From positions 62,001-126,000 of the forward strand of contig NC_009142.1 of NCBI RefSeq assembly GCF_000062885.1: a stretch of 64,000 bases of DNA, in the 5' to 3' direction. This stretch comes from Saccharopolyspora erythraea NRRL 2338. Its GTDB lineage: Bacteria > Actinomycetota > Actinomycetes > Mycobacteriales > Pseudonocardiaceae. The translations under genes were made by a program, and so were the position numbers. Shown piece after piece: positions 20,830 to 35,768 of this stretch. Under the pieces are notes generated by a model, which was not told the DNA's origin, did not search any database, and was given only the letters and a program-made list of their open reading frames with translations. Every line of letters starts with the position of its first letter. Position 1 is the stretch's first letter.

Positions 20830-21731
20830 GTGCCTGTTTTTGATCTTGGTTGGTGGGTGAGTTGGCGGGTCATGAGGGTGATGGCGGCCCAGTTGATGAC
20901 GGTTTCGGAGTGGGCGGGCAGGCGTTCGTAGTCGCGGACGGTGCGGCGGGCTTGGGTGATCCAGGACAGGGTGCGTTCGACGACCCAGCGTCGGGGTAGT
21001 GCCTGGGAACCGATCTGTCCGGTGATTTTGCGGACGATGTGCAGGGTGATGCCCAGGGCGGTGTCCGCCCAGGTGATCAGGCGGCCCGCGTAGCCCGCGT
21101 CGGCCCGCAGCAGGCTGAGCCGCTGCTGGGTTGTGCGGAGGTAGCGCAGGAGGAGTTCGGCGCCGCGTCGGTCGGTGACGTGGGCTCCGGTGACGCACAC
21201 GCCCAGCAGCAGGCCCAGTGTGTCGGTGGTGATGTGTCGTTTGCGTCCGTTGACTTTCTTGCCCGCGTCGTAGCCGCGGGTGTCGCGGCCTGCGGTTTCG
21301 GCGGCGCGCACGGATTGGGAGTCGATGACGCCCGCGCTGGGCTGGTGGTGGCGTCCGGCGCGGGTGCGGATCTGCTCGCGCGGGCTGTCACGCAGGGCGA
21401 GGACGACGTTGTCGCGGCTGCAGCGGTTGTAGAAGCCGGAGACGGTCTGCCACGGAGGGAAGTCCGCGGGCAGTCCGCGCCATTTGCAGCCGTTGTCGAT
21501 GACGTAGCGGATGGCATCGACCACGTCGCGACGCGGGTGCTGTTCCGGGTGACCGCCGCTGGAGGTCTCACACGCCGGAGTGGGCAGCAGCGGTTCGATC
21601 AATGCCCACTCGGCGTCGGTGGTGTCGGTCGGGTAGCGGCGTGGGCGGGCGGTAGAGCTGTCCTGGGCTGTTGTGGTGTACAAACGGATCGGGCCTTTGC
21701 TGTGTCGATCTTGATGTGGTGTCACGATCAC
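20830..21731 (-). CDS. IS5-family DDE transposase without its own stop codon
   Basis: The transposase has the IS5 N-terminal region (YPTDTTDAEWALIEPLLP, NGCKWRGLP) and a complete DDE triad: Asp in GVIDSQSV, Asp in LRADAGYAG and Glu in RWVVERTLSW. The GTG at 21731 has a GGAAGAGGG site about nine bases upstream; a GTG exactly at the IS tip is a less likely start. The frame reaches the end of the element in THQPRSKTGT without a stop codon. It continues outside, antisense to the oxidoreductase gene, to a stop at 20019-20021. In another frame the duplicated TCA/TGA supplies a stop. The enzyme core looks intact, but the tail depends on the insertion site. Confidence 0.85.
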
Positions 21732-21779
21732 TAGCAAAGGCCCTCTTCCACCCCACCCCCGGGGATCAAAAACAGGCAC
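20830..21779 (-). mobile_element. Complete IS5-family insertion sequence, 950 bases, 3-base TCA duplication
   Basis: The element is bounded by matching terminal inverted repeats (GTGCCTGTTTTTGATC at 20830-20845 and its complement at 21764-21779). A direct TCA flanks it at 20827-20829 and 21780-21782, which fits the TNA target duplications of IS5-family elements. It carries one transposase frame on the minus strand. Removing the element and one TCA restores a hairpin repeat between two convergent genes. Near-perfect ends suggest recent insertion. Confidence 0.92.
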
Positions 21780-21916
21780 TCAGGCGCCCTCTGGCTCCGG
21801 GATCTTTTCTCGCGTATCACGCCTCGCCAGAGGACGCCTGAGAACCCGCGGCGGTGCCGGTTGCGGGGGTGGGCCAAGCGGCTGCGCCGCTTCAAGGATC
21901 AAAACAGGCGCTGAGG
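21780..21916. repeat. Intergenic hairpin repeat interrupted by the IS
   Basis: After the IS, TCAGGCGCCCTCTGGC (21780-21795) can pair with GCCAGAGGACGCCTGA (21826-21841) with few mismatches. On the other IS side, GCGGTGCCGGTGGCGG (about 20808-20823) is repeated as GCGGTGCCGGTTGCGG at about 21851-21866. The downstream end (GATCAAAACAGGCGCTGAGG, 21897-21916) strongly resembles the IS terminus. The layout suggests a repeated intergenic element acting as terminator between convergent genes. Confidence 0.6.
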
Positions 21917-23307: not shown

Positions 23308-24507
23308 GTGCTCAAGGCGCTCCCCGAGTCGCGACGACTCGACACGGCCACCATCGAACTCGACCCGCCGTTCGCGGTGGCCGACCTCGACGCGTTCCAC
23401 CGCAACGCCGCCGACCTGGTGCGACGTGCGGCGGGACGGCCGGTGCGGGTGGCCACCAAGTCGGTGCGGTGCCGGGAACTGCTGCGCAGGACCCTGACGA
23501 CGCCCGGCTTCGCCGGCCTCATGTGCTACAGCCTCGCCGAGGCGCTCTGGCTGCACGGCGACGGACTCAGCGAGGACGTCCTGGTCGCCTACCCGACGGC
23601 CGACCGGGGAGCGCTGCGCCAACTCGTGGCGCGTCCGACGGCCGCGGCCGCCATCACGATCATGGTCGACTCGGTCGAGCACCTGGACCTGGTCGACGCC
23701 GCCGTCGGTACGCGCCGCCCGGAAATCCGGGTGTGCCTGGACATCGACGCGTCCTGGCGGCCGCTGCCCGCCATGCACATCGGCACCCGGCGCTCGCCGG
23801 TGCACACCGCCGCGGACGCGCGGCGGCTCGCCGAGGCAGTGGTGCGCCGCGCTGGGTTCCGGCTCGCGGGCCTGATGGCCTACGAAGGCCAGATCGCCGG
23901 GCTCGGTGATGCCCCGCCCGGCAGCCCGCTGCGCGGGGCGGGGGTGCGGTGGATGCAGCGCCGGTCCGCCGCCGAGCTCGCCGGGCGCCGGGCCGAGATC
24001 GTCACCGCGATCCGGGAACTGGCCGAGCTGGAGTTCGTCAACGGCGGCGGCACCGGCAGCATCGAGACCACCACCGCCGAGTCCGCCGTCACCGAGGTCG
24101 CCGCCGGGTCCGGGCTGGTCGGGCCGACGTTGTTCGACGCGTACCGGTCTTTCCGGCCGGAGCCCGCCCTGCTGTTCGCGCTGCCCGTAGTGCACCGCCC
24201 CGGCGGCCGGGTGGCGACGGTGTTCGGCGGCGGCTACATCGCGTCCGGGCCGGTCGGCGCCGACCGCGCACCGACGCCTTACCTGCCCACGGGGCTGAAG
24301 CTGACCGCCGTCGAAGGCGCGGGCGAGGTGCAGACGCCGGTCGCCGGGCACGCCGCCCGGCGGCTGCGCCTGGGCGACCGGGTCTGGTTCCGCCACGCCA
24401 AGGCCGGCGAGCTCGCCGAGCGGTTCAACGAGTACCACCTGGTCGACGGCGACCGGGTGGCCGACTCGGTGCCCACCTACCGCGGGGAGGGCAGGTCCTT
24501 CGGTTGA
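23308..24507 (+). CDS. PLP-dependent D-amino-acid aldolase/deaminase-like protein
   Basis: The 399-residue protein resembles the D-threonine aldolase / D-serine dehydratase-like family (alanine racemase N-terminal barrel). The PLP lysine is in RVATKSVRC near residue 51, followed by FAGLMCYSLAEALWL, ICLDID-like RVCLDIDASWR and the glycine-rich phosphate site NGGGTGS. The C-terminal half ends in the DSD1-like HxxxxxC region in altered form (VWFRHAKAGELAERF). The GTG start follows the operator palindrome by 28 bases. The 3' end overlaps the convergent TetR gene by 31 bases. Together with the divergent lactone oxidase it may form a small catabolic set. Confidence 0.8.
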   Translation: MLKALPESRRLDTATIELDPPFAVADLDAFHRNAADLVRRAAGRPVRVATKSVRCRELLRRTLTTPGFAGLMCYSLAEALWLHGDGLSEDVLVAYPTADRGALRQLVARPTAAAAITIMVDSVEHLDLVDAAVGTRRPEIRVCLDIDASWRPLPAMHIGTRRSPVHTAADARRLAEAVVRRAGFRLAGLMAYEGQIAGLGDAPPGSPLRGAGVRWMQRRSAAELAGRRAEIVTAIRELAELEFVNGGGTGSIETTTAESAVTEVAAGSGLVGPTLFDAYRSFRPEPALLFALPVVHRPGGRVATVFGGGYIASGPVGADRAPTPYLPTGLKLTAVEGAGEVQTPVAGHAARRLRLGDRVWFRHAKAGELAERFNEYHLVDGDRVADSVPTYRGEGRSFG

Positions 24508-25124
24508 TCGTCGGGCAGCCGGTTGGCCAGGTAGCCCCGGACCAGCTCCCGCGCCTCGGTGACCAGCGTCGGGTCGCCCGCGGGGTCGCGGCGGAAAGCC
24601 AGGTGCAGCACCGCGTCGGCGGCCTCCACCGCCACCGACAGCGGCAGCATCAGGTCGGCGGCCTCCAGGTCGAACTCGGCGGCGATCAGGGAGGTCAGCT
24701 TCTCGGCGATGACCGTGTTGTTGTCCTTGCTCGCGTCGAGCAGCCGCAGGTCCACGACGTCGCCGAAGTGCAGGCGGCTGAACCCGGGAACCTCGCGGTG
24801 CATGGTCATGTAGACGTCGAAGACCGCGTCCACGGCGTCCCACCAGTGCGCCATCTCGACGCCCTCGAAGCGCGCCGACACCGTGCGGACGAACCGGTCC
24901 AGGTTGCGCAGGGTCAGCTCCTGCACCACGGCGCGTTTGTCGGGGAAGAACTGGTAGAGCGAGCCGACCGCCACGCCCGCCCGCTCGGCGATCAGCGTGG
25001 TCGACAGCCCGTCGTAACCGACCTCGTCGATGAGTTGGGCACAGGCTTCGAGCATCTTCTCGACCCGCTGGGCGCTGCGTTGCTGAACCGGCTTGCGGCG
25101 CAGGGGCGCTACTTCGGTGGGCAA
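24477..25124 (-). CDS. TetR-family transcriptional regulator
   Basis: The 215-residue protein carries a typical TetR helix-turn-helix: RSAQRVEKMLEACAQLIDE, then TTLIAERAGVAVGSLYQFF and PDKRAVVQEL (residues about 12-65). The C-terminal ligand domain is alpha-helical and unrelated to named subfamilies by eye. The start is a TTG with AAGGAG five bases upstream; no ATG or GTG fits. It converges with the aldolase-like gene and is divergent from the large fusion gene at 25704, so it may control either or both. The 23-base palindrome between the oxidase and aldolase genes is its most likely binding site. Confidence 0.88.
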   Translation of the reverse strand: MPTEVAPLRRKPVQQRSAQRVEKMLEACAQLIDEVGYDGLSTTLIAERAGVAVGSLYQFFPDKRAVVQELTLRNLDRFVRTVSARFEGVEMAHWWDAVDAVFDVYMTMHREVPGFSRLHFGDVVDLRLLDASKDNNTVIAEKLTSLIAAEFDLEAADLMLPLSVAVEAADAVLHLAFRRDPAGDPTLVTEARELVRGYLANRLPDDQPKDLPSPR

Positions 25125-25703
25125 GGCGACTCCTTGATCATGTTCTTGACCATCTTGCCGACCACGACCGTGACTCTCTTTCAGGGGAGCCCTTCCATCG
25201 TCGCCGAGGGGCGGAGCCCGGCGGTCTGGTGCACCGGGACCCGGCGGCCCCGATGCTTCAAGTCTCTCGTTCCGGCACTCTTCGTGCCCTTCGGACATGC
25301 CGAAACCTATATCAGCCGGTCGGGTGTTTCGCCCGGGAACGCCTTGACCGTGACCGCGGAGCCGTTCCGCCGGTGCACAGCCGCTTTCGCCGCCCGCGCG
25401 GGGCCGGTGGGGGCCAGGACGGCGTATGCATTCGGTCACGTTGCCAGTGCGAAGGGTCACTATCTAGCGTGTTCGAGTCTTCTCGGTCCGCGACAGAAGG
25501 GTCATCGTGGGTAACTGCGGCGCCGCCTCTCGTTCTTCCGGTCCCCCTCGTGCTGTGCTCATGCGGTGGACACCGGCCAGGGCCACCCGGCAAGCGCCGC
25601 CCGGTCCGCGGCTCGCGGCCGCCTGGGCCGGCTCGCGGCGCGCCCGGTGACCGCGTCGCAGGCCCTCGCCCGCTGCGGGGCACCGACAAGAGGAGAGCGC
25701 CCG

Positions 25704-28700
25704 TTGGACGGTTGGCGTCGACGGGACCTGTGGTCCCCGTTGGCGGTCGCGGAGGCCAACGCCATGCTCCGCGACGGCGCCTACGGGCTCCGGGTCGAGC
25801 CGGCACCGTGGCGGCTGACCGGACCCGGCGCCGGTGTCGGGCTGCCGCTGGGTGAAGCGCCGACCTGGGCCGACCTGTACCGCGCGCTGGTCAGGTTGCG
25901 GCGGACCCGCCGAACGCACGATCCGGCCTGGCTGCACCGGTTGACCCGGACGCTGTCCGGCGAGGTGCCCGCCGCGGGCGCGACCCGCTGGGTCGCGGTG
26001 CCGCCGGACCGGCTGGAGCGGCTGACGGCCGACTGCGGCACCGACCTCCGCCACTTCCTCGCCCCGCTGGTGGCGTCGGACGGTTCGATGCTGTTCCCCG
26101 CCAGCGGCGGCGGGCTGGAGCGACCGGACCTGGTCGTCGACGACAACGGCGGGGTGATCACCGTCCGGGGTGAGGCCGGCCCGCCGGTCCGGTTGCGCGC
26201 CACCGACCTCGGTGGCGCGCGCAGCCAGCTCAGCAACTGGTCCGCGCTGGCGGCCGCGGTGGAGTCCGACCCGGTGCTGCGGATGCACTGCGCGGCGCAG
26301 GCCGTACCGGCGGCGCTGGCCGACGCCGACTCCGTGCTGTTGCTGCAGGGCATCGAGCCTTCGCCGAGGCATCCCGGGCATCCCGGCGGCACAGTCGTCG
26401 CTGGTCTGCCCGCACTGCTGCGCCCGACCGCCGGCGGCCGGGCAGGGCTGCTGCGGCTGGTGATCGAGAACCGCTTCGAGCACCGGGAGGACGAGCTCGG
26501 CTACTTCCTCGACCACCTGGTCCGGCCGCTGCTGCGGACCTTCCGCCTGGCGCTGGACGACCACCGGCTCGCGTTGCTCTCGCTGAACCCCGACGGCGCG
26601 GGCTTCGAGCTGTCGACCGAGTTACAGCTCACCGGCCGCGCGGTGGTCACCGACCCCGGCGAGGTCCGGCCGGAGCCGACCGGGGCCGAGGTCACCGCTG
26701 CCGCCGACGGGCTCACCCGCACGCTCGACGAGCTGACCGCCGGTTTCGCCGCGATCGGCTTCGCGGGCGGAGGGCACCCGCACGCGGCGGTGCGAGCGGC
26801 GGTCGACCAGGTGACCGCCGAGGAGCTGCGGTTCCTGCGGCCGCGCACGGCCGAGCTGCTTGCCGGCGACCACGGGCTGCGCGGCTTCGCGCACAGCGTG
26901 CCGGAGGACCAGGACCGGGTGCTCAAGGAAGTGCTGCACGCCGTCGAGGAGCGCACCCGCAAACGGCGCTGGAAACGCGACCTGCCGCAGCCCGTGGTCG
27001 TCATCGACCTCGACCTGTGCGGGATCCTGCCGATGCGGAGGACGCTCGACGCGGCCCGCGCGGTCTCCGGTCCGCGCCCGGGTGCGCCCGAGGGCATCCT
27101 CGAGCTCGCCCGGCCGGGTTCACTGCCGGTGCTGCCCAACTTCTCCGAATCGGCCTGGGACAACTTCGTCGACCTCAGCGGCCTCGGCCGCAAGTACCCG
27201 ACGGTGGACTGGCGGCAAGTGCACGCCGAGTTCTTCCGCGCGTTCTCCCGGCCGTGGGAGCGGTTGCGGACCGACACCGTCAACCCCGGCCTCGCGCGGT
27301 TCGTGTGGGACGTCCACGACGGCGGCGGCCGCGTGGTGTTCTGCACCGGCCGCAGGGAACGCGTGCGGGCCCACACCGAGGCGGTGCTCGCGGCGGCGGG
27401 CGTGCCGGACGCGGCGCTGCTGTGCATGCCCGACGACCGCACCAGGCCGATCTCCGAGCTGAAGGTCGAGAAGCTGCGCGAGCTCGGCGACATCGACGTC
27501 GTCGCGGTCTTCGACGACCTGCAGCGCAACCGCGTCGCGCTCACCGAGGAGTTCACCGGGGCCAGAGCGGTGGCCGTGGAGATCCCCGGGATGGCCACCG
27601 AACGGCGGCCGGGGCAGCCGCTCGGCGACCAGGCGCCGGTGATCTCGACTTTCGAGACGGTCCCGCGCCGTGCCGCACCGAGCCTGTCCAACACGCATTC
27701 GCTGGAGGAGCTGCAGATCGGTGCCATGCGGCGCAACCGGATCTCGCGCGACTGGGCGGTGCACCTCAGCGAGCGGGAGACGCTGTCGCTGGTCGGTTCG
27801 GTGCTCGCCGACGCCGACCGCTCGGCGGCCAGGACCGCGCGCGGCGCGCGCGTGAAGTTCGGGCTCGACCAGGGTGAACCCGGGTTCGAGCAGGTCATCC
27901 GGGCGCTGCACCACGTGTTCACGCGCAAGCAGTTCCTCAAGGGCTCGCGCTCGAACTACCGGTGGGAGGACATGCTTCGCGACGCCGGCCCGTTCGTCTC
28001 CCGCGACGAGCCGCTGGAGATCGTGCTGCTGGGCTTCCCGGTCAAGCAGTGCCTCAACCGGCTCAAGGCGTTCGGTCCGCTGCCCGACCTCGCCGAGCTG
28101 GGCGGGCTGGCGCGGCTGCGGGAGCTCCGGCAGGCGGTGAGCGCGGTTTACCCGCCCGGCGTGCACTTCAACATCCTCACCGACGGCAGGCACTTCCGGC
28201 CCCGCCCCGCCGCCATCACCGGCGCCTACAGCCGAAAGCTCCGCGAGTACGTGCGGCTGGTCGGCATCGACGACTGCACGACGGTCGAGGAGATCGACAC
28301 CGTCGCCCGGCAGCGGCTCGGTCCCGACCTGCCCGCGCGGCGCGCGGCGCGGCTGGCGCGGTACCGCGCCGAGATTTACCAGGCCCTCCAGGGCCTGGAC
28401 ATCACCGCGAACCCGCTGCGCACGCTCGACGGAGTCGACCACCGGGTGTCCATGATGGACGGAGCGCTGGGCGAGTCCATGCGCCTCTTCCGGGAGATGC
28501 TGATGTCGGTGGTGTACTCGGTCCCGGTGACCGTACCGGCCGGCGTCGACCGGCTCACCTGGTCGACGCTGGTCTACGCCGACATCTACAACACGGCCGA
28601 CCCGGCGGTGCCGGACGAGGTCCGGCGGGGCCGGGCCGCGGTGCTGAGCCGGGCCTGGCACACCGTCGTCCGATACCTGGCGACGCTGCGGGTGGACGAG

Positions 28701-29024
28701 GAACTCGGCTACGAGGAGCTGTTCCCGCACCGGGTGCGGCTCACCGTCAGCGCGGCCCGGCCGGGTCGCTGCGGCTTCACCTACCTCGGCGGGTCGGGCC
28801 TGCTGCCGTGGCAGGGCACCGGGGTGCTCGACCCCCGCGGGCACGTGGCCGTCGACTTCGCGATCGCGGTGCTGGACCAGGGTTTCGTCCCGGTGTACTC
28901 GCCGCTGCTCGGACCCCGTCAGCCATTGATGATGGTCCCGGCGCAGCACACCAGGCCGTCGGCGTCCGGCGGGCTGCGCCTGGACGACGCCCTCGCCGAA
29001 CGCGTCCGCCTGCGGCGGAAGTAG
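25704..29024 (+). CDS. Three-part fusion: NIS-synthetase-like region, HAD domain, PvcA/DIT1 isocyanide synthase-like domain
   Basis: The 1106-residue protein has at least two recognisable domains. Residues about 430-640 form a HAD phosphohydrolase core with all four motifs: D435-L-D437, T548 in FCTGRR, K587, and D604-D605 in VFDDLQ. Residues about 735-1095 match the PvcA/DIT1 family, which makes isocyanides from amino acids: LEIVLLGFPVKQCLNRLK, LPDLAELGGLARLRELR, YPPGVHFNILTDGRHF and LLPWQGTG. Residues 1-400 are less clear; HPGHP (223-227) followed by YFLDHLVRPLLRTFRLAL recalls IucA/IucC-type siderophore synthetases. The TTG start has AGGAGAG upstream; a GTG at 25566 lacks a ribosome site. 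No 2-oxoglutarate oxygenase or NRPS is adjacent. The product may be an unusual metallophore or isocyanide. Confidence 0.75.
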   Translation: MDGWRRRDLWSPLAVAEANAMLRDGAYGLRVEPAPWRLTGPGAGVGLPLGEAPTWADLYRALVRLRRTRRTHDPAWLHRLTRTLSGEVPAAGATRWVAVPPDRLERLTADCGTDLRHFLAPLVASDGSMLFPASGGGLERPDLVVDDNGGVITVRGEAGPPVRLRATDLGGARSQLSNWSALAAAVESDPVLRMHCAAQAVPAALADADSVLLLQGIEPSPRHPGHPGGTVVAGLPALLRPTAGGRAGLLRLVIENRFEHREDELGYFLDHLVRPLLRTFRLALDDHRLALLSLNPDGAGFELSTELQLTGRAVVTDPGEVRPEPTGAEVTAAADGLTRTLDELTAGFAAIGFAGGGHPHAAVRAAVDQVTAEELRFLRPRTAELLAGDHGLRGFAHSVPEDQDRVLKEVLHAVEERTRKRRWKRDLPQPVVVIDLDLCGILPMRRTLDAARAVSGPRPGAPEGILELARPGSLPVLPNFSESAWDNFVDLSGLGRKYPTVDWRQVHAEFFRAFSRPWERLRTDTVNPGLARFVWDVHDGGGRVVFCTGRRERVRAHTEAVLAAAGVPDAALLCMPDDRTRPISELKVEKLRELGDIDVVAVFDDLQRNRVALTEEFTGARAVAVEIPGMATERRPGQPLGDQAPVISTFETVPRRAAPSLSNTHSLEELQIGAMRRNRISRDWAVHLSERETLSLVGSVLADADRSAARTARGARVKFGLDQGEPGFEQVIRALHHVFTRKQFLKGSRSNYRWEDMLRDAGPFVSRDEPLEIVLLGFPVKQCLNRLKAFGPLPDLAELGGLARLRELRQAVSAVYPPGVHFNILTDGRHFRPRPAAITGAYSRKLREYVRLVGIDDCTTVEEIDTVARQRLGPDLPARRAARLARYRAEIYQALQGLDITANPLRTLDGVDHRVSMMDGALGESMRLFREMLMSVVYSVPVTVPAGVDRLTWSTLVYADIYNTADPAVPDEVRRGRAAVLSRAWHTVVRYLATLRVDEELGYEELFPHRVRLTVSAARPGRCGFTYLGGSGLLPWQGTGVLDPRGHVAVDFAIAVLDQGFVPVYSPLLGPRQPLMMVPAQHTRPSASGGLRLDDALAERVRLRRK

Positions 29025-29436: not shown

Positions 29437-29775
29437 TTACGGCACCGGCGCCACCTCGCGCAGAGCGTGCGCGGGGCGCAGGTGCCGTGCGGGACGAGGC
29501 GCCAGGGCGCCGCTCACCAGGTGCTCGTAGGCCGAGCGCCACACCGTGCAGGGTGCCTTGCACGGGCGCCAGCGGCTCGAGCACTCCGGGCAGTTGCCCT
29601 TCTCGTCGGCGTCGTGAGCGGAGAGCAGCGTGCGCCACCCCTCGGTCAAACGAGGGAGCTCGGAGCGCGCCACGGCGAGCAGGGAAGGGGCGTCCGCGCG
29701 GTTCGCCAGCTCGGTGAGCACGTCGAGCCGCTCCCACACCGCGTTGCGCAGCACCTGTCCCAGTATCTCGTCCAC
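29437..29775 (-). CDS. Small Cys-rich protein, unknown function
   Basis: The 112-residue product has a helical N-terminal half (DEILGQVLRNAVWERLDVL) and a cysteine cluster in the middle, CPECSSRWRPCKAPC, followed by TVWRSAYEHL. The four Cys residues (CxxC, then CxxxC) could hold a zinc ion or iron-sulfur cluster. The GTG start has GAGG five bases upstream. It is followed on the same strand by no gene for several hundred bases and preceded by another small gene, with 13 bases between them. Both are divergent from the XRE-TPR regulator. I do not know the function. Confidence 0.7.
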   Translation of the reverse strand: MDEILGQVLRNAVWERLDVLTELANRADAPSLLAVARSELPRLTEGWRTLLSAHDADEKGNCPECSSRWRPCKAPCTVWRSAYEHLVSGALAPRPARHLRPAHALREVAPVP

Positions 29776-30262: not shown

Positions 30263-31633
30263 ATGAACATCATCGGTTCCAGCGGCTCGCCCGTTACACC
30301 CGACGTGTGGAACGAGCGACCGATGCGGGACGCCCTGGCGAACCGGAACATCAGCGAGGTCTACAAGCAGCTTCGCAGGCACGGTGTTTCGCAACGCCAG
30401 ATAGCGGCCTCCACCGGGCAGTCGCAGTCCGAGGTGTCCGAGATCCTCAAGGGTCGGCAGGTCATGGCATATGACGTGCTGGCACGCATCGCTGACGGGC
30501 TGGGAATACCGAGGGGGTACATGGGCCTCGCCTACGACGGGGCGACGGCAGTGAGGGTCGCTAACTCGACCAGCGACTCCCAGGCTGAGGAGGACGAGTC
30601 GGTGAAGCGTCGGAAGTTCTTGTCCCATGCCGCGGCTGTCACCATGGGTGCGGCCGTCTTCGGCGCCGAGGAGAGCAGCTGGGTGCCCGCGAGCGCCCAG
30701 ACGCCGGCCCCGGGCCGCATCGGCATGACCGACGTGCAACAGATCCAGGCCGCGACGAAGGCGTTGCGAGACCTCGACTACCGCTACGGCGGAGGTACCT
30801 GTCGCGACGCGGTGGTCGCCCAGCTCTCCTGGGCGCAGCAACTGCTCGAAGCCACGGCGACCGACCAGGTGCGCAGGAAGCTGTTCGTGTCGCTGGCCGA
30901 CATGCACAGCCTGGCCGGTTGGACCTCGTTCGACACCGGTCTGCTGGATCCGGCCCGCGGGCACTTCGGCAAGGCGCTGGAGTTCGCCAAGCAGGCCGAG
31001 GACGACAGCCTCGTGGCCAGCGTGCTCTACCGGATGGGCCGGGTCTACCTGCACTACCAGGAGCCCAACGAGGCCCTGAAGCTGTTCCAGCTGGGCCAGA
31101 TCGCGGCCCAGGAGTCCGGCTCGGCGCTCACCGTCGCCGTGCTGTGCGCCAACGAGGCGTGGGCCTACGGCATGCTCAACAAGCCAGACCAGGTGCAGAA
31201 GATGGTCGGGCGCACGAAGGACGAGTTCGCCAGGGCCGACGTCAACGACGCCCCGGACTGGGTCCGGTTCTTCACCGAGAACGATCTGCACGGCATGATC
31301 GGCTCCGCCAACGACGCGCTCGCCGTGTTCGACCCGGACCGCTACGCCCCGATCGCGGTGGCCGAGACCATCAAGTGCAACGAGGCCTACGGCACGGACA
31401 TGCAACGCACCCACGTGTTCGGGCTGAGCCTGCAGGCCACCAACCACATCCGGGCCGGTGACCTGCAGCAGGGCATCAAGGTCGGCAGGACCGCGCTGGC
31501 GATCGGCGAGAAGGTCAAGTCCGCCAGGGTCGCCGACCGGCTGCGGCCGCTGGAGCTGGAGGCGGGCAGGCACCGGATGAACTCCGACGCCCGCGACCTC
31601 TCCGAGGAGATCCGGCGGTTCCGCGAAGTGTGA
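30263..31633 (+). CDS. XRE-family regulator with TPR domain and internal twin-arginine-like segment
   Basis: The 456-residue protein begins with a helix-turn-helix (about 20-80; GVSQRQIAASTGQSQSEVSE, ILKGRQ) of the XRE type. A segment at about 113-145 reads KRRKFLSHAAAVTMGAAVFG and then ASAQTP, resembling a twin-arginine signal peptide in the middle of the protein. The remaining 300 residues are tetratricopeptide-like helices (GHFGKALEFAKQAEDDSLVA, YRMGRVYLHYQEPNEALK). The family includes NsdA-like regulators of differentiation and antibiotic production. The ATG has a GAGGGGG site nine bases upstream. A phosphotransferase gene follows. Confidence 0.85.
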   Translation: MNIIGSSGSPVTPDVWNERPMRDALANRNISEVYKQLRRHGVSQRQIAASTGQSQSEVSEILKGRQVMAYDVLARIADGLGIPRGYMGLAYDGATAVRVANSTSDSQAEEDESVKRRKFLSHAAAVTMGAAVFGAEESSWVPASAQTPAPGRIGMTDVQQIQAATKALRDLDYRYGGGTCRDAVVAQLSWAQQLLEATATDQVRRKLFVSLADMHSLAGWTSFDTGLLDPARGHFGKALEFAKQAEDDSLVASVLYRMGRVYLHYQEPNEALKLFQLGQIAAQESGSALTVAVLCANEAWAYGMLNKPDQVQKMVGRTKDEFARADVNDAPDWVRFFTENDLHGMIGSANDALAVFDPDRYAPIAVAETIKCNEAYGTDMQRTHVFGLSLQATNHIRAGDLQQGIKVGRTALAIGEKVKSARVADRLRPLELEAGRHRMNSDARDLSEEIRRFREV

Positions 31634-31739: not shown

Positions 31740-32654
31740 ATGATGAGTTTCCAGACACGCCCCATGGAGGACGGCCGGTACACCCGGCCCAAGCTGGCGC
31801 TGGCGCTGGCCGAGATATGCGCCGCGGTCGGGCTCGACTCGCGTGACGCGCGGCTGCTCCGGTTCGTCAACAACGGGGTCTTCCTGCTCGAACGGGAGCA
31901 GGTGATCGTGCGCATCGTCCTCGCGCCGTCTTTTTCATATCGTGCTGTCAACGTTGTCGAGGCCGCGAGGTGGCTCGCCGAGCACGACGTGCCCGCGGTG
32001 CGGCTGCTGCCGGGCATCCGGCAGCCGGTGCGCGTGGGCGGGCATCTGGCGACGCTGTGGCGTTCGGTGCCCGACACCGGTGCACGGCCGACCGGCGCGC
32101 ACCTGGGCAGGCTGCTGCGCAGGGTGCATTCGTTGCCGCGGCCCACGACGCTGCCGGAATGGCGGCCGATGGAGGACGTCCGGCGCAGGCTCTTCGACGC
32201 CGAGGAGCTCGACTCCGACGACCGGTACTTCCTGGAGCAGCGCTGCGACGACGTCGAGCAGCGGCTCGACGCCCTGCGCTTCCCGCTTCCGCGCGGTGTG
32301 GTCCACGGCGACGCCCACCTCGGGAATCTGATCGTCACACCTGGCGGTCCGGTGCTGTGCGACCTGGACTCGCTGTGCGTCGGCCCGCCGGAGTGGGACC
32401 TGACCCCGATGGCCGTGGGACGCCTGCGGCTGGGGCATCCGCCGGAGCGCTACGAAGAGCTGGCCCGCGCCTACGGCTTCGATCTGCTGGCGTGGGAGGG
32501 CTTCCAGGTTCTGCGCGACCTGCGCGAACTGAAGATCACCGTCAGCGTGCTGCCGATCCTGCGCAGCAATCCCGGCATCCGCGGTGAGCTGCGCCGCAGG
32601 CTCCGCACGATGCGAGCCGGTGATGTCACTGCGCAGTGGGCGCCCTACAACTAG
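31740..32654 (+). CDS. Aminoglycoside-phosphotransferase-fold kinase
   Basis: The 304-residue protein has the APH fold: N-terminal nucleotide lobe with NNGVFLLEREQVIVRIV, the catalytic loop VVHGDAHLGNLIV (D is the base) and the metal-binding DLDSLCVGPPEWDL, where the usual DFD/DWE is DLD. Such kinases phosphorylate aminoglycosides, macrolides, choline or small metabolites; the substrate cannot be told. Two ATG codons are possible at the start (31740 or 31743). The gene follows the XRE-TPR regulator, and a similar pair occurs in other actinomycetes as far as I know. Confidence 0.85.
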   Translation: MMSFQTRPMEDGRYTRPKLALALAEICAAVGLDSRDARLLRFVNNGVFLLEREQVIVRIVLAPSFSYRAVNVVEAARWLAEHDVPAVRLLPGIRQPVRVGGHLATLWRSVPDTGARPTGAHLGRLLRRVHSLPRPTTLPEWRPMEDVRRRLFDAEELDSDDRYFLEQRCDDVEQRLDALRFPLPRGVVHGDAHLGNLIVTPGGPVLCDLDSLCVGPPEWDLTPMAVGRLRLGHPPERYEELARAYGFDLLAWEGFQVLRDLRELKITVSVLPILRSNPGIRGELRRRLRTMRAGDVTAQWAPYN

Positions 32655-32799: not shown

Positions 32800-33108
32800 A
32801 TGGAGATCGCGAACATGAGGCGGGCGAAGCTGGTCCCGAGGTGGCGTGGCAAGCGGGCGCTGCGCTCGGCGCAGGTGCTGGACGACGTGGTGAACGCTCA
32901 GGTCGCGCTGCTCCCGCAGCTCTCGCCGGAGGCCAGGCAGCGCAGCGCCGACCACCTGGCGGAGATGGTCATGCTCGGCCAGGCGTACCGGCACTACGCG
33001 GCGGGCTGGATCAGCCGGCGCGAACTCGAGCGCCGCGGCAAGGCCGCGTTGCGCCGTATGGAGTCAACCAAGCGGCCACCTTTGGAGCAACTCACCGAAC
33101 GTGAGTGA
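32800..33108 (+). CDS. Small hypothetical protein, helical
   Basis: The 102-residue product is basic at both ends and mainly helical: LDDVVNAQVALLPQLSPEAR, then AEMVMLGQAYRHYAAGWISR and a terminal helix RRELERRGKAALRRMES. No known domain was recognised. The start is uncertain: ATG 32800 or ATG 32815, which has GGAG at a slightly long distance. A longer frame from 32695 is unlikely. The gene converges with the macrolide-phosphotransferase-like gene with four bases between them. Confidence 0.65.
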   Translation: MEIANMRRAKLVPRWRGKRALRSAQVLDDVVNAQVALLPQLSPEARQRSADHLAEMVMLGQAYRHYAAGWISRRELERRGKAALRRMESTKRPPLEQLTERE

Positions 33109-34482: not shown

Positions 34483-35013
34483 TCAGTTCTTGCCGGTGGG
34501 CCTGCCCATCCGCAGTGCGAGCGTCAGGCCGACGCCGACCAGCACGACCGCGCCGAGGACCCACGGCCAGACCGGCATGCCGCCGGACTCGGCCGACTGT
34601 TGCTCCTGCTGGGCCTGGGGCGGCTGGGCCGGCGTGCCGCCGCCCGGCTTGGTCAGGGTGAAGGTGACCTTGCCCGGCACCGGATGCCCGTCGGCGGACA
34701 GGATCCGGTAGCCGACGGTGTAGGTGCCCGCGGGTCCGAGCTGCCGCACCGGTGCGGTGACCGACGTGCCGTCGACCTGCACCGCGCCGTCGGTCCAGTA
34801 CGTCCCGTCCGGTCCGACGACGTTGACCGTGTTGTAGCCCTCCCCGGCCCGGACCGGCTGGTCGAAGGTCAGCCGCACCTGCTGCGGGCCGACCTCCAGC
34901 TGCGCGCCCTCGGTGGGGTCGCTGCCGATCAGCACGTTGTGCGCGAGGGCGGTGCCCGCCCCGCCGAGCAGCGCGGTGAGCGACAGCGCCGCGACCGCGA
35001 CGAACCGCCTCAT
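34483..35013 (-). CDS. copC: CopC-domain copper-binding protein with C-terminal membrane anchor
   Basis: The 176-residue precursor has a signal peptide (RRFVAVAALSLTALLGG) whose cleavage after LA leaves the mature N-terminus HNVLIGSDP, the copper-binding histidine brace of CopC proteins. The CopC domain continues to RILSADGHPVPGKVTFTL, which holds the second conserved histidine. A Pro/Gln linker and one membrane helix (about 150-170) anchor the protein. CopD is not fused and not adjacent. The ATG overlaps the stop of the YcnI-like gene by four bases, so translation is coupled. Confidence 0.9.
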   Translation of the reverse strand: MRRFVAVAALSLTALLGGAGTALAHNVLIGSDPTEGAQLEVGPQQVRLTFDQPVRAGEGYNTVNVVGPDGTYWTDGAVQVDGTSVTAPVRQLGPAGTYTVGYRILSADGHPVPGKVTFTLTKPGGGTPAQPPQAQQEQQSAESGGMPVWPWVLGAVVLVGVGLTLALRMGRPTGKN

Positions 35014-35768
35014 GACCTGGCCTTCCTGCTCCGCGCTAGCGCGCCGATGCCGATGCCCAGCGCGAGGGCTCCGACGCCCAGGCCCGCGCCGCCCAGGTAG
35101 CGGGCGGTGTCGTCGGCGGACTGGGCGGCGTGCGCGGGCTCTGCCTGCTCGGCCGTGCCGTGCTGCCCCTGCTGACCGGGCTGGCCGTGCTGACCGTGAC
35201 CGCCTTCGGAGTCTTCGACGAGCTCCAGCGTCGGCGCCGGGTGTTCGGGCTCCTCGCCGCCGGGCGGCGTCGGGGCGTCCCACCGGACGACCTCGCCGTT
35301 GTCGTAGGTCTGCTCCGTGGGCAGCAGCAACTGGTCGGTGTCGGTGGGCAGCGTGCCGAGCGTCGCCTCGAACTCGTCGAACTGGTCGGGGGCGATGCGA
35401 TTGCCGGGCTGCGCGGTCCAGGTGATGGCCGACACCGCCTCGGTCACCTGCGCGCCGGCCACGACGACCGGCTGCGGGAGTGCGACCTTCTCCACCTGGG
35501 CGGTCCAGCCCGGCATCGGCTTGGTCCGGACCGAGCCGAGCGGGTGGTCCAGCGGCAGCGACACCCGGATCTTCACCGTGCCGGAGCCGTCCCGCTCGTT
35601 GGGCACCCGGAAGGCGACCTTGGCGTGGCCGCCCTTGGCGGCCTCGCCGTCCGGGTTCACCGAGACGTGGGCGGAGGCGGTGCCCGCCGAGGCGAGCGCG
35701 ACGATCCCGACAACCGCGGCCGAGGCGGTCGAACGGGACAGAATTCTTCTTGCGGATTTAGGGGACAT
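35010..35768 (-). CDS. ycnI: YcnI-like DUF1775 copper-associated membrane protein
   Basis: The 252-residue protein has a signal peptide ending at TASA, leaving HVSVNPDGEA as mature N-terminus; the N-terminal histidine with a nearby Trp is the copper site of the YcnI/DUF1775 family. The domain spans about 35-170, then an acidic His/Gln/Gly-rich linker (GGHGQHGQPGQQGQHG) precedes a C-terminal membrane helix. Longer frames upstream are not supported. The ATG lies next to CATATG; no strong ribosome site is present. It is coupled to copC by an ATGA overlap. Function is probably copper binding or delivery at the cell surface. Confidence 0.9.
   Translation of the reverse strand: MSPKSARRILSRSTASAAVVGIVALASAGTASAHVSVNPDGEAAKGGHAKVAFRVPNERDGSGTVKIRVSLPLDHPLGSVRTKPMPGWTAQVEKVALPQPVVVAGAQVTEAVSAITWTAQPGNRIAPDQFDEFEATLGTLPTDTDQLLLPTEQTYDNGEVVRWDAPTPPGGEEPEHPAPTLELVEDSEGGHGQHGQPGQQGQHGTAEQAEPAHAAQSADDTARYLGGAGLGVGALALGIGIGALARSRKARS

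Follow-up and report, generated by a model that had tools for sequence, protein, structure and literature searches.

Isocyanide synthases (ICSs) are uncommon enzymes that use an unusual carbon donor, and to our knowledge the fate of that donor's phosphate is unsettled. A gene of Saccharopolyspora erythraea NRRL 2338, a soil actinobacterium and well-studied industrial organism, raises the question of what an ICS-like domain would do when it is joined to a haloacid dehalogenase (HAD) domain and to a domain resembling the nonribosomal peptide synthetase (NRPS)-independent siderophore (NIS) synthetases. The gene lies in a stretch of 64,000 nucleotides (nt; contig NC_009142.1, positions 62,001 to 126,000), hereafter the window, where one uninterrupted frame runs from TTG 25704 to the stop at 29022–29024 (+) and encodes a product of 1106 amino acids (aa). 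A preliminary description of this DNA had named the three parts. These identities were right at the level of fold for all of them, as judged from Pfam and from Foldseek searches with the full model and with the N-terminal domain, and the motifs that it had named are present at their places in all three domains. Motif positions in the protein are HPGHP 223, DLDLCG 435, TGRR 548, K587, DD 604–605, GFPVKQ 777, PPGVHFNILTDGRHF 817 and PWQG 1035. With a confidence just short of even, the sequence points to a divergent one-carbon-transfer enzyme, isocyanide- or formyl-forming, that would act on an amino-acid substrate.

Integrity and distribution of the fusion gene

A frame of this kind could be an artefact, produced by a frameshift or by the chance joining of adjacent genes. 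The frameshift, which the preliminary description had raised as a way to refute the fusion, is excluded by an intact orthologue with 94% identity in the same genus (G012) and by one-frame fusions in other genera, with identities of 57–64% in genera g25, g36 and g47 and of 40–58% elsewhere. Full one-frame fusions occur across several genera and dozens of genomes. Between the two species of the same genus, differences at the three codon positions number 34, 34 and 96, an excess at the third position, and the ratio of nonsynonymous to synonymous rates (dN/dS) is 0.29 for the whole gene, which is thus under purifying selection. By part, the ratio is 0.23 for the NIS-like domain, 0.44 for the HAD domain and 0.32 for the ICS-like domain, and the helical linker at aa 641–760 is the most conserved segment between the sister species (0.065). 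AlphaFold2 returned one confident model of the full protein (predicted local distance difference test (pLDDT) 88.6, predicted template modelling (pTM) score 0.86). Nothing favours an artefact for the window gene, and frame splits at the border of the N-terminal and ICS-like domains were found in two relatives, G023 and G669. Because one-frame fusions recur in other genera and selection is purifying, the chance of an artefact is negligible. Sequence comparison thus indicates that the fusion is a real single polypeptide, conserved across many genera of the host's taxonomic family.

The TTG start is backed by the N-terminal residues LW.PL....AN, which are conserved among relatives, and the ribosome-binding-site-like gaggag lies 8 nt ahead of it; an alternative in-frame GTG at 25566 would make the frame longer. 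The gene is present as a single copy in the one-contig genome of 8,212,805 bases. PvcA-type matches were found in 96 of the 299 genomes of the family, a count that takes in canonical ICSs. Our main alignment holds 32 relatives (rows) of the fusion protein. The fusion clade also includes L044, L045, L046 and L049, which lack a detectable NIS-like or HAD part. Outside the family, two further relatives were found within the order: G662 carries HAD and ICS-like domains in one open reading frame, which has no N-terminal domain and is interrupted by the contig end, and G669 (L131) carries the N-terminal domain, a HAD remnant and the ICS-like domain, split by a frameshift between the N-terminal and ICS-like domains. 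Across the class, 346 genomes were searched and yielded only ICSs of canonical type and no other member of the clade; a plasmid collection held no relatives, and in a contig collection only Actinopolyspora mortivallis matched.

Members of genus g25 (L032–L036) carry a second paralogue (paralogue b), about 40% identical to the first and about 7 kb from it, past the genes for a helix-turn-helix–tetratricopeptide repeat (HTH-TPR) protein and an APH protein and, mostly, a small gene of about 100 aa. Paralogue b comprises an NIS-like remnant, a HAD domain with the full catalytic set and an ICS-like domain that mostly has PWHG. L132:3-1439 and L133:1-681 hold a HAD–ICS fusion without an NIS-like domain that is cut by a contig break; genes that resemble, by eye, an acetyltransferase and a glycosyltransferase lie downstream in L133.

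Three domains and what they retain

Consistent with its assignment to the PvcA/DIT1 group by the preliminary description, the C-terminal domain matches PF05141 (DIT1_PvcA) at aa 764–867 with 57.3 bits against a curated cut-off of 26.4 (E 2.3e-15), over profile positions 4–109 of 273 only, and has the PvcA fold. All 32 aligned rows match this family. Searches against NCBIfam and PDB sequences point to PvcA and to tyrosine and tryptophan isonitrile synthases, and Foldseek with the full model found PvcA (3e59, E 1.2e-8) and PIsnA (9dh4, 1.8e-8; 9dh4/9dhm, 2e-8 to 7e-8). We compared the domain with 24 canonical ICSs from the same family and class. Of 74 columns conserved among the canonical enzymes, 26 are retained in at least 80% of the rows; the retained core reads FP.K....(N)..K..G.LPD..E, PG, D.(G).(H)F, RL, PW(H/Q)G and P1074. 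Every row has K781, K788, P794, D795, D827, P1035 and W1036, and almost every row E798 and G819. The fusion clade and the canonical ICSs each have 100/100 support in a maximum-likelihood tree, where a stem of about five changes per column separates them. The ICS-like domains are thus placed, by their sequences, in a deep clade of their own within the DIT1_PvcA superfamily.

Several known systems resemble this arrangement in part. PvcA, IsnA and PIsnA (PF05141) share the fold (Foldseek E 1e-8 to 7e-8) and the motifs FP.K, N..K, PD..E, PG, DG.F and PW.G, whereas the fusion protein falls in a separate clade, has an extra helical linker before the domain, is fused to two other domains and has no adjoining PvcB dioxygenase. 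ICSs fused to catalytic domains are also found in ICS–dioxygenase and ICS–NRPS proteins (IsnAB-type, XanB and CrmA; PMC5974471), but there the partners are TauD or NRPS domains rather than HAD and NIS-like ones, and here the ICS-like domain is C-terminal. Dit1, of the yeast dityrosine pathway, is likened here by its membership of the same Pfam family; it is a single-domain fungal protein, and its product has been argued to be formyl-tyrosine (PMC7345447).

The HAD catalytic set is complete in the fusion protein, as the preliminary description had stated (D435, D437, T548, K587, D604 and D605), and the fold was recovered by structure search. Between HAD motifs I and II lies an insert of about 110 aa, where by our own reading a C1-type cap would lie. 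The Pfam match is below its cut-off (PF03767, E 0.0065, 16.4 bits against 27), and the HAD profile gave only weak acid-phosphatase matches among PDB sequences. Among the Foldseek matches of the full model, the first HAD enzyme is the MtlD phosphatase (E 1e-5), and the structural neighbours are of sugar-phosphate type (MtlD, beta-phosphoglucomutase and CbbY). With these C1-cap phosphatases the domain shares the fold and the D.D / T / K / DD set; it differs from them in motif I, which is DLDLCG rather than DxDGT, in its sub-threshold sequence match and in having been degraded or lost in several relatives. All six catalytic residues are intact in 19 of the 32 rows.

For the N-terminal domain, the likeness to IucA/IucC enzymes claimed in the preliminary description held for the fold, but not for the HPGHP motif on which it had leaned. 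Modelled alone by AlphaFold2 (pLDDT 87), the domain had NIS synthetases as its best 14 Foldseek matches in the PDB (E 6e-6 to 8e-5, with moderate template modelling scores of 0.35–0.47), including AcsD (6e-6), SbnC (1e-5) and IucC (6e-5), followed by kinases and pseudokinases; the full model also found AcsD (E 8e-4). Profile–profile comparison (hhalign) with 19 NIS synthetases of the same family gave a weak match, in register over aa 172–280 (E 0.0015, probability 17%). HPGHP is absent in paralogue b and in L041, and the profile alignment sets it apart from the GHP and HPWQ motifs of NIS enzymes. The PF04183/PF06276 (IucA/IucC) check proposed for this region gave no match in the fusion protein or in 31 relatives; NCBIfam made no IucA/IucC call for the fusion protein, PF04183 matched nothing in the window genome, and the N-terminal profile matched no PDB sequence. 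Among 201 family genomes searched, that profile matched only fusion-clade proteins.

The NIS invariants K290, H439, N442 and D459 (numbering of the NIS alignment) have no conserved counterpart in the N-terminal domain. An R..D spacing (R312 and D317) like that of NIS R454/D459 exists, but D317 varies, and this register was read by eye rather than from superposed coordinates. R274, P275, T310, G311, R312 and E374 are invariant in 32 of 32 rows. Compared with AcsD, SbnC and IucC, the domain has the same overall fold but is shorter and carries invariant RP and TGR in place of conserved ATP and metal residues. Because the ATP-site Lys, His, Asn and Asp are not conserved, an active NIS synthetase is unlikely from the sequence, and the domain most likely serves in binding or assembly as a synthetase that has lost its activity.

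These observations bear on the proposal of the preliminary description that an active NIS synthetase, a HAD enzyme and an ICS together build a new isonitrile metallophore. The NIS fold would suit it, as would the binding of copper by isonitriles in other systems (PMC5974471) and the presence of CopC/YcnI genes 5.5 kb away. Besides the loss of the ATP-site residues, however, several genera lack part of the N-terminal region and some relatives the whole domain; in the window genome the gene has no uptake system, transporter, receptor or partner enzyme tied specifically to it, and CopC also occurs at the locus where the fusion is absent. Metallophore synthesis is unsupported, and we consider this version very improbable.

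A candidate one-carbon transfer and its rivals

The reaction known for this family links the nitrogen of tyrosine or tryptophan to one of the carbons of ribulose 5-phosphate (PMC7949033). In its pocket, the ICS-like domain of the fusion may take a single carbon from ribulose 5-phosphate or a related sugar phosphate and attach it to the amino group of an amino acid, which would yield an isonitrile or an N-formyl equivalent. An intact HAD domain would strip phosphate from the sugar-phosphate donor or a by-product, and the NIS-like domain, a synthetase/kinase fold now without catalytic activity, would keep the substrate or the assembly in place. The product might leave or go to enzymes encoded elsewhere; in L131, it might go to an adjoining NRPS/ATP-grasp operon. 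In favour of this reading we counted the PF05141 match above cut-off, the PvcA/PIsnA fold and the retained core; the complete HAD set of the window protein and its sugar-phosphate-type neighbours; the NIS fold with invariant RP and TGR at the expense of the Lys, His, Asn and Asp; the restriction of the N-terminal profile to these proteins; and the operon context of L131. In that locus (L131:7516-14930, from G669), the ICS gene overlaps a major facilitator superfamily (MFS) gene, which is followed by AMP-binding, PP-binding, thioesterase and ATP-grasp (LAL_C2-like, L-amino-acid-ligase-like) genes. This operon is the best pointer we have, and suggests small-molecule (natural product) biosynthesis; no further operon-type relatives were found among the three and two genomes of the families of G669 and G662, respectively.

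Several observations weigh against a one-carbon-transfer enzyme of this design. Within the ICS-like domain, 48 of the 74 canonical-conserved columns are changed: the invariant Cys is replaced by L825, the His of RLSIHP by S1016 and G935 by Ser; R955, F956 and Y978 are lost; and H1037 has become Gln in most fused rows. Seven of the 32 rows (L017, L031, L040, L042, L047, L048 and L050) have a HAD set that is severely degraded or deleted, and some relatives lack any HAD domain. The gene stands alone in the window genome, and no PvcB-type (TauD, Fe/2-oxoglutarate) dioxygenase occurs among 324 neighbour proteins, compared with one within 1.5 kb at 8 of 24 canonical ICS loci. Finally, the evidence of an operon is drawn from a single incomplete genome, in which a frameshift separates the N-terminal and ICS-like domains.

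The changes in 48 columns mean that the chemistry or the substrate may differ, and with those canonical residues gone the product could also be a formyl compound or a sugar adduct. One possible explanation is that the ICS-like domain performs other one-carbon or carbonyl chemistry. It might, for example, carry out N-formylation like that of Dit1, or couple an amine to a sugar phosphate with no isonitrile intermediate, after which the HAD domain would dephosphorylate a retained sugar–amino-acid adduct. Replacement of several canonical invariants and the great distance of the clade are consistent with this alternative, a fused phosphatase would fit a sugar-retaining product, and PvcA does not complement Dit1, for which formyl tyrosine was argued (PMC7345447), although a Dit1-type isonitrile was reported in a later paper (PMC13005658). 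By contrast, the domain retains the catalytic core that it has in common with PvcA, and the HAD domain is dispensable in some lineages, and we regard such chemistry as unlikely, if worth considering. The suggestion of the preliminary description that the HAD domain cleaves phosphate from the ribulose-5-phosphate-derived donor may hold, but not as a universal step, since the catalytic set is degraded or deleted in some rows and the domain is absent in some relatives. This loss would make phosphate removal optional, or a task of other enzymes.

A phylogenetic survey of PF05141 lists only single-domain, ICS–dioxygenase and fungal ICS–NRPS architectures (PMC5974471), and we found no mention of an NIS-like–HAD–ICS or ICS–HAD fusion in the literature searched, most subscription papers aside, in agreement with the preliminary description, which had known of no such architecture. 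We thus found no earlier description of this combination, which belongs to a new, separate clade within the known PF05141 superfamily. More tentatively than the one-carbon-transfer reading itself, we suggest that the fusion may represent a new class of such enzyme. Its ICS-like catalyst would be self-contained, supplied with a phosphatase for the sugar phosphate and with an NIS-type domain that has been turned to holding the substrate. The product, whether an isonitrile, a formyl compound or a sugar–amino-acid conjugate, would be unlike known isonitriles, and in many actinobacteria the gene for the enzyme would lie outside any recognisable biosynthetic cluster. Because the fusion genes lie outside clusters, cluster-based mining would probably miss them. 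A natural ICS–HAD phosphatase fusion in a separate clade offers a direct test bed for the donor-phosphate question.

A conserved chromosomal slot

The window gene stands between a divergent TetR gene and an HTH-TPR regulator gene, with an APH kinase gene beyond (Table 1). No NRPS and no PvcB-type 2-oxoglutarate oxygenase lies within about 10 kb of it, so the earlier remark that neither is adjacent was correct. No biosynthetic, transport or uptake genes are specifically linked to it; its neighbours are family-wide syntenic genes, and among the relatives only the distant L131 has such genes with it in an operon. We considered a functional link to the TetR, HTH-TPR and APH genes and rejected it because they are near-universal in the family with or without the fusion (TetR in 132 and APH in 139 of 151 family genomes). 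In genomes that lack the fusion, the interval between TetR and HTH-TPR contains a glycoside hydrolase family 1 (GH1) beta-glucosidase and an MFS gene, in some cases with a short-chain dehydrogenase/reductase (SDR) gene, or little else (names by eye). Since other cargo occupies the same place there, the fusion gene sits in a conserved chromosomal slot, not in a cluster.

Table 1. Positions of the fusion gene, its parts and its conserved neighbours in the window.
Feature	Position	Strand	Basis
Ribosome-binding-site-like gaggag	25690..25695	+	Sequence
NIS-like–HAD–ICS-like fusion protein, 1106 aa	25704..29024	+	Open frame, conserved N-terminal residues
N-terminal domain, aa 1–427, NIS-synthetase/kinase-like fold	25704..26984	+	AlphaFold2 and Foldseek, weak hhalign match
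HAD domain, aa 428–640	26985..27623	+	Catalytic residues, fold match
Helical linker, aa 641–760	27624..27983	+	AlphaFold2 model, sister-species conservation
ICS-like (DIT1_PvcA, PF05141) domain, aa 761–1106	27984..29021	+	Pfam, fold, alignment, tree
Divergent TetR regulator (F3)	24477..25124	-	Near-universal in family, not fusion-specific
HTH + TPR regulator (F1)	30263..31633	+	Conserved neighbour, also in fusion-less genomes
APH-type phosphotransferase (F2)	31764..32654	+	Conserved neighbour, 139/151 family genomes

A single-copy, lone gene in such a slot would also suit a multidomain protein of weak catalysis or regulatory function, for example a sugar-phosphate sensor formed by a pseudo-NIS domain and a decaying HAD domain, with no biosynthetic role. 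The unconserved ATP residues of the N-terminal domain and the decay of the HAD domain in several lineages fit this picture, but the core residues of the ICS-like domain are invariant across very divergent sequences and one relative lies in a biosynthetic operon. We judge a regulatory protein improbable and retain one-carbon transfer as the working interpretation.

Across the family, the cargo of the TetR/HTH-TPR slot varies (L119–L130): it is the fusion gene, the GH1, MFS and SDR genes, or little. A copper-handling pair, CopC (PF04234) and a DUF1775/YcnI-type gene, lies side by side at 34483–35660 (-), about 5.5 kb from the fusion gene; its proximity is probably only synteny, because CopC is also at the locus in fusion-less genomes. 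Two conserved small proteins of about 100 aa with no Pfam match are encoded at 29437–29775 (-) and 32800–33108 (+), at the locus across the family. A DDE-type transposase frame, IS5-like by eye, is inserted at about 20830–21780 (-) between otherwise conserved neighbours.

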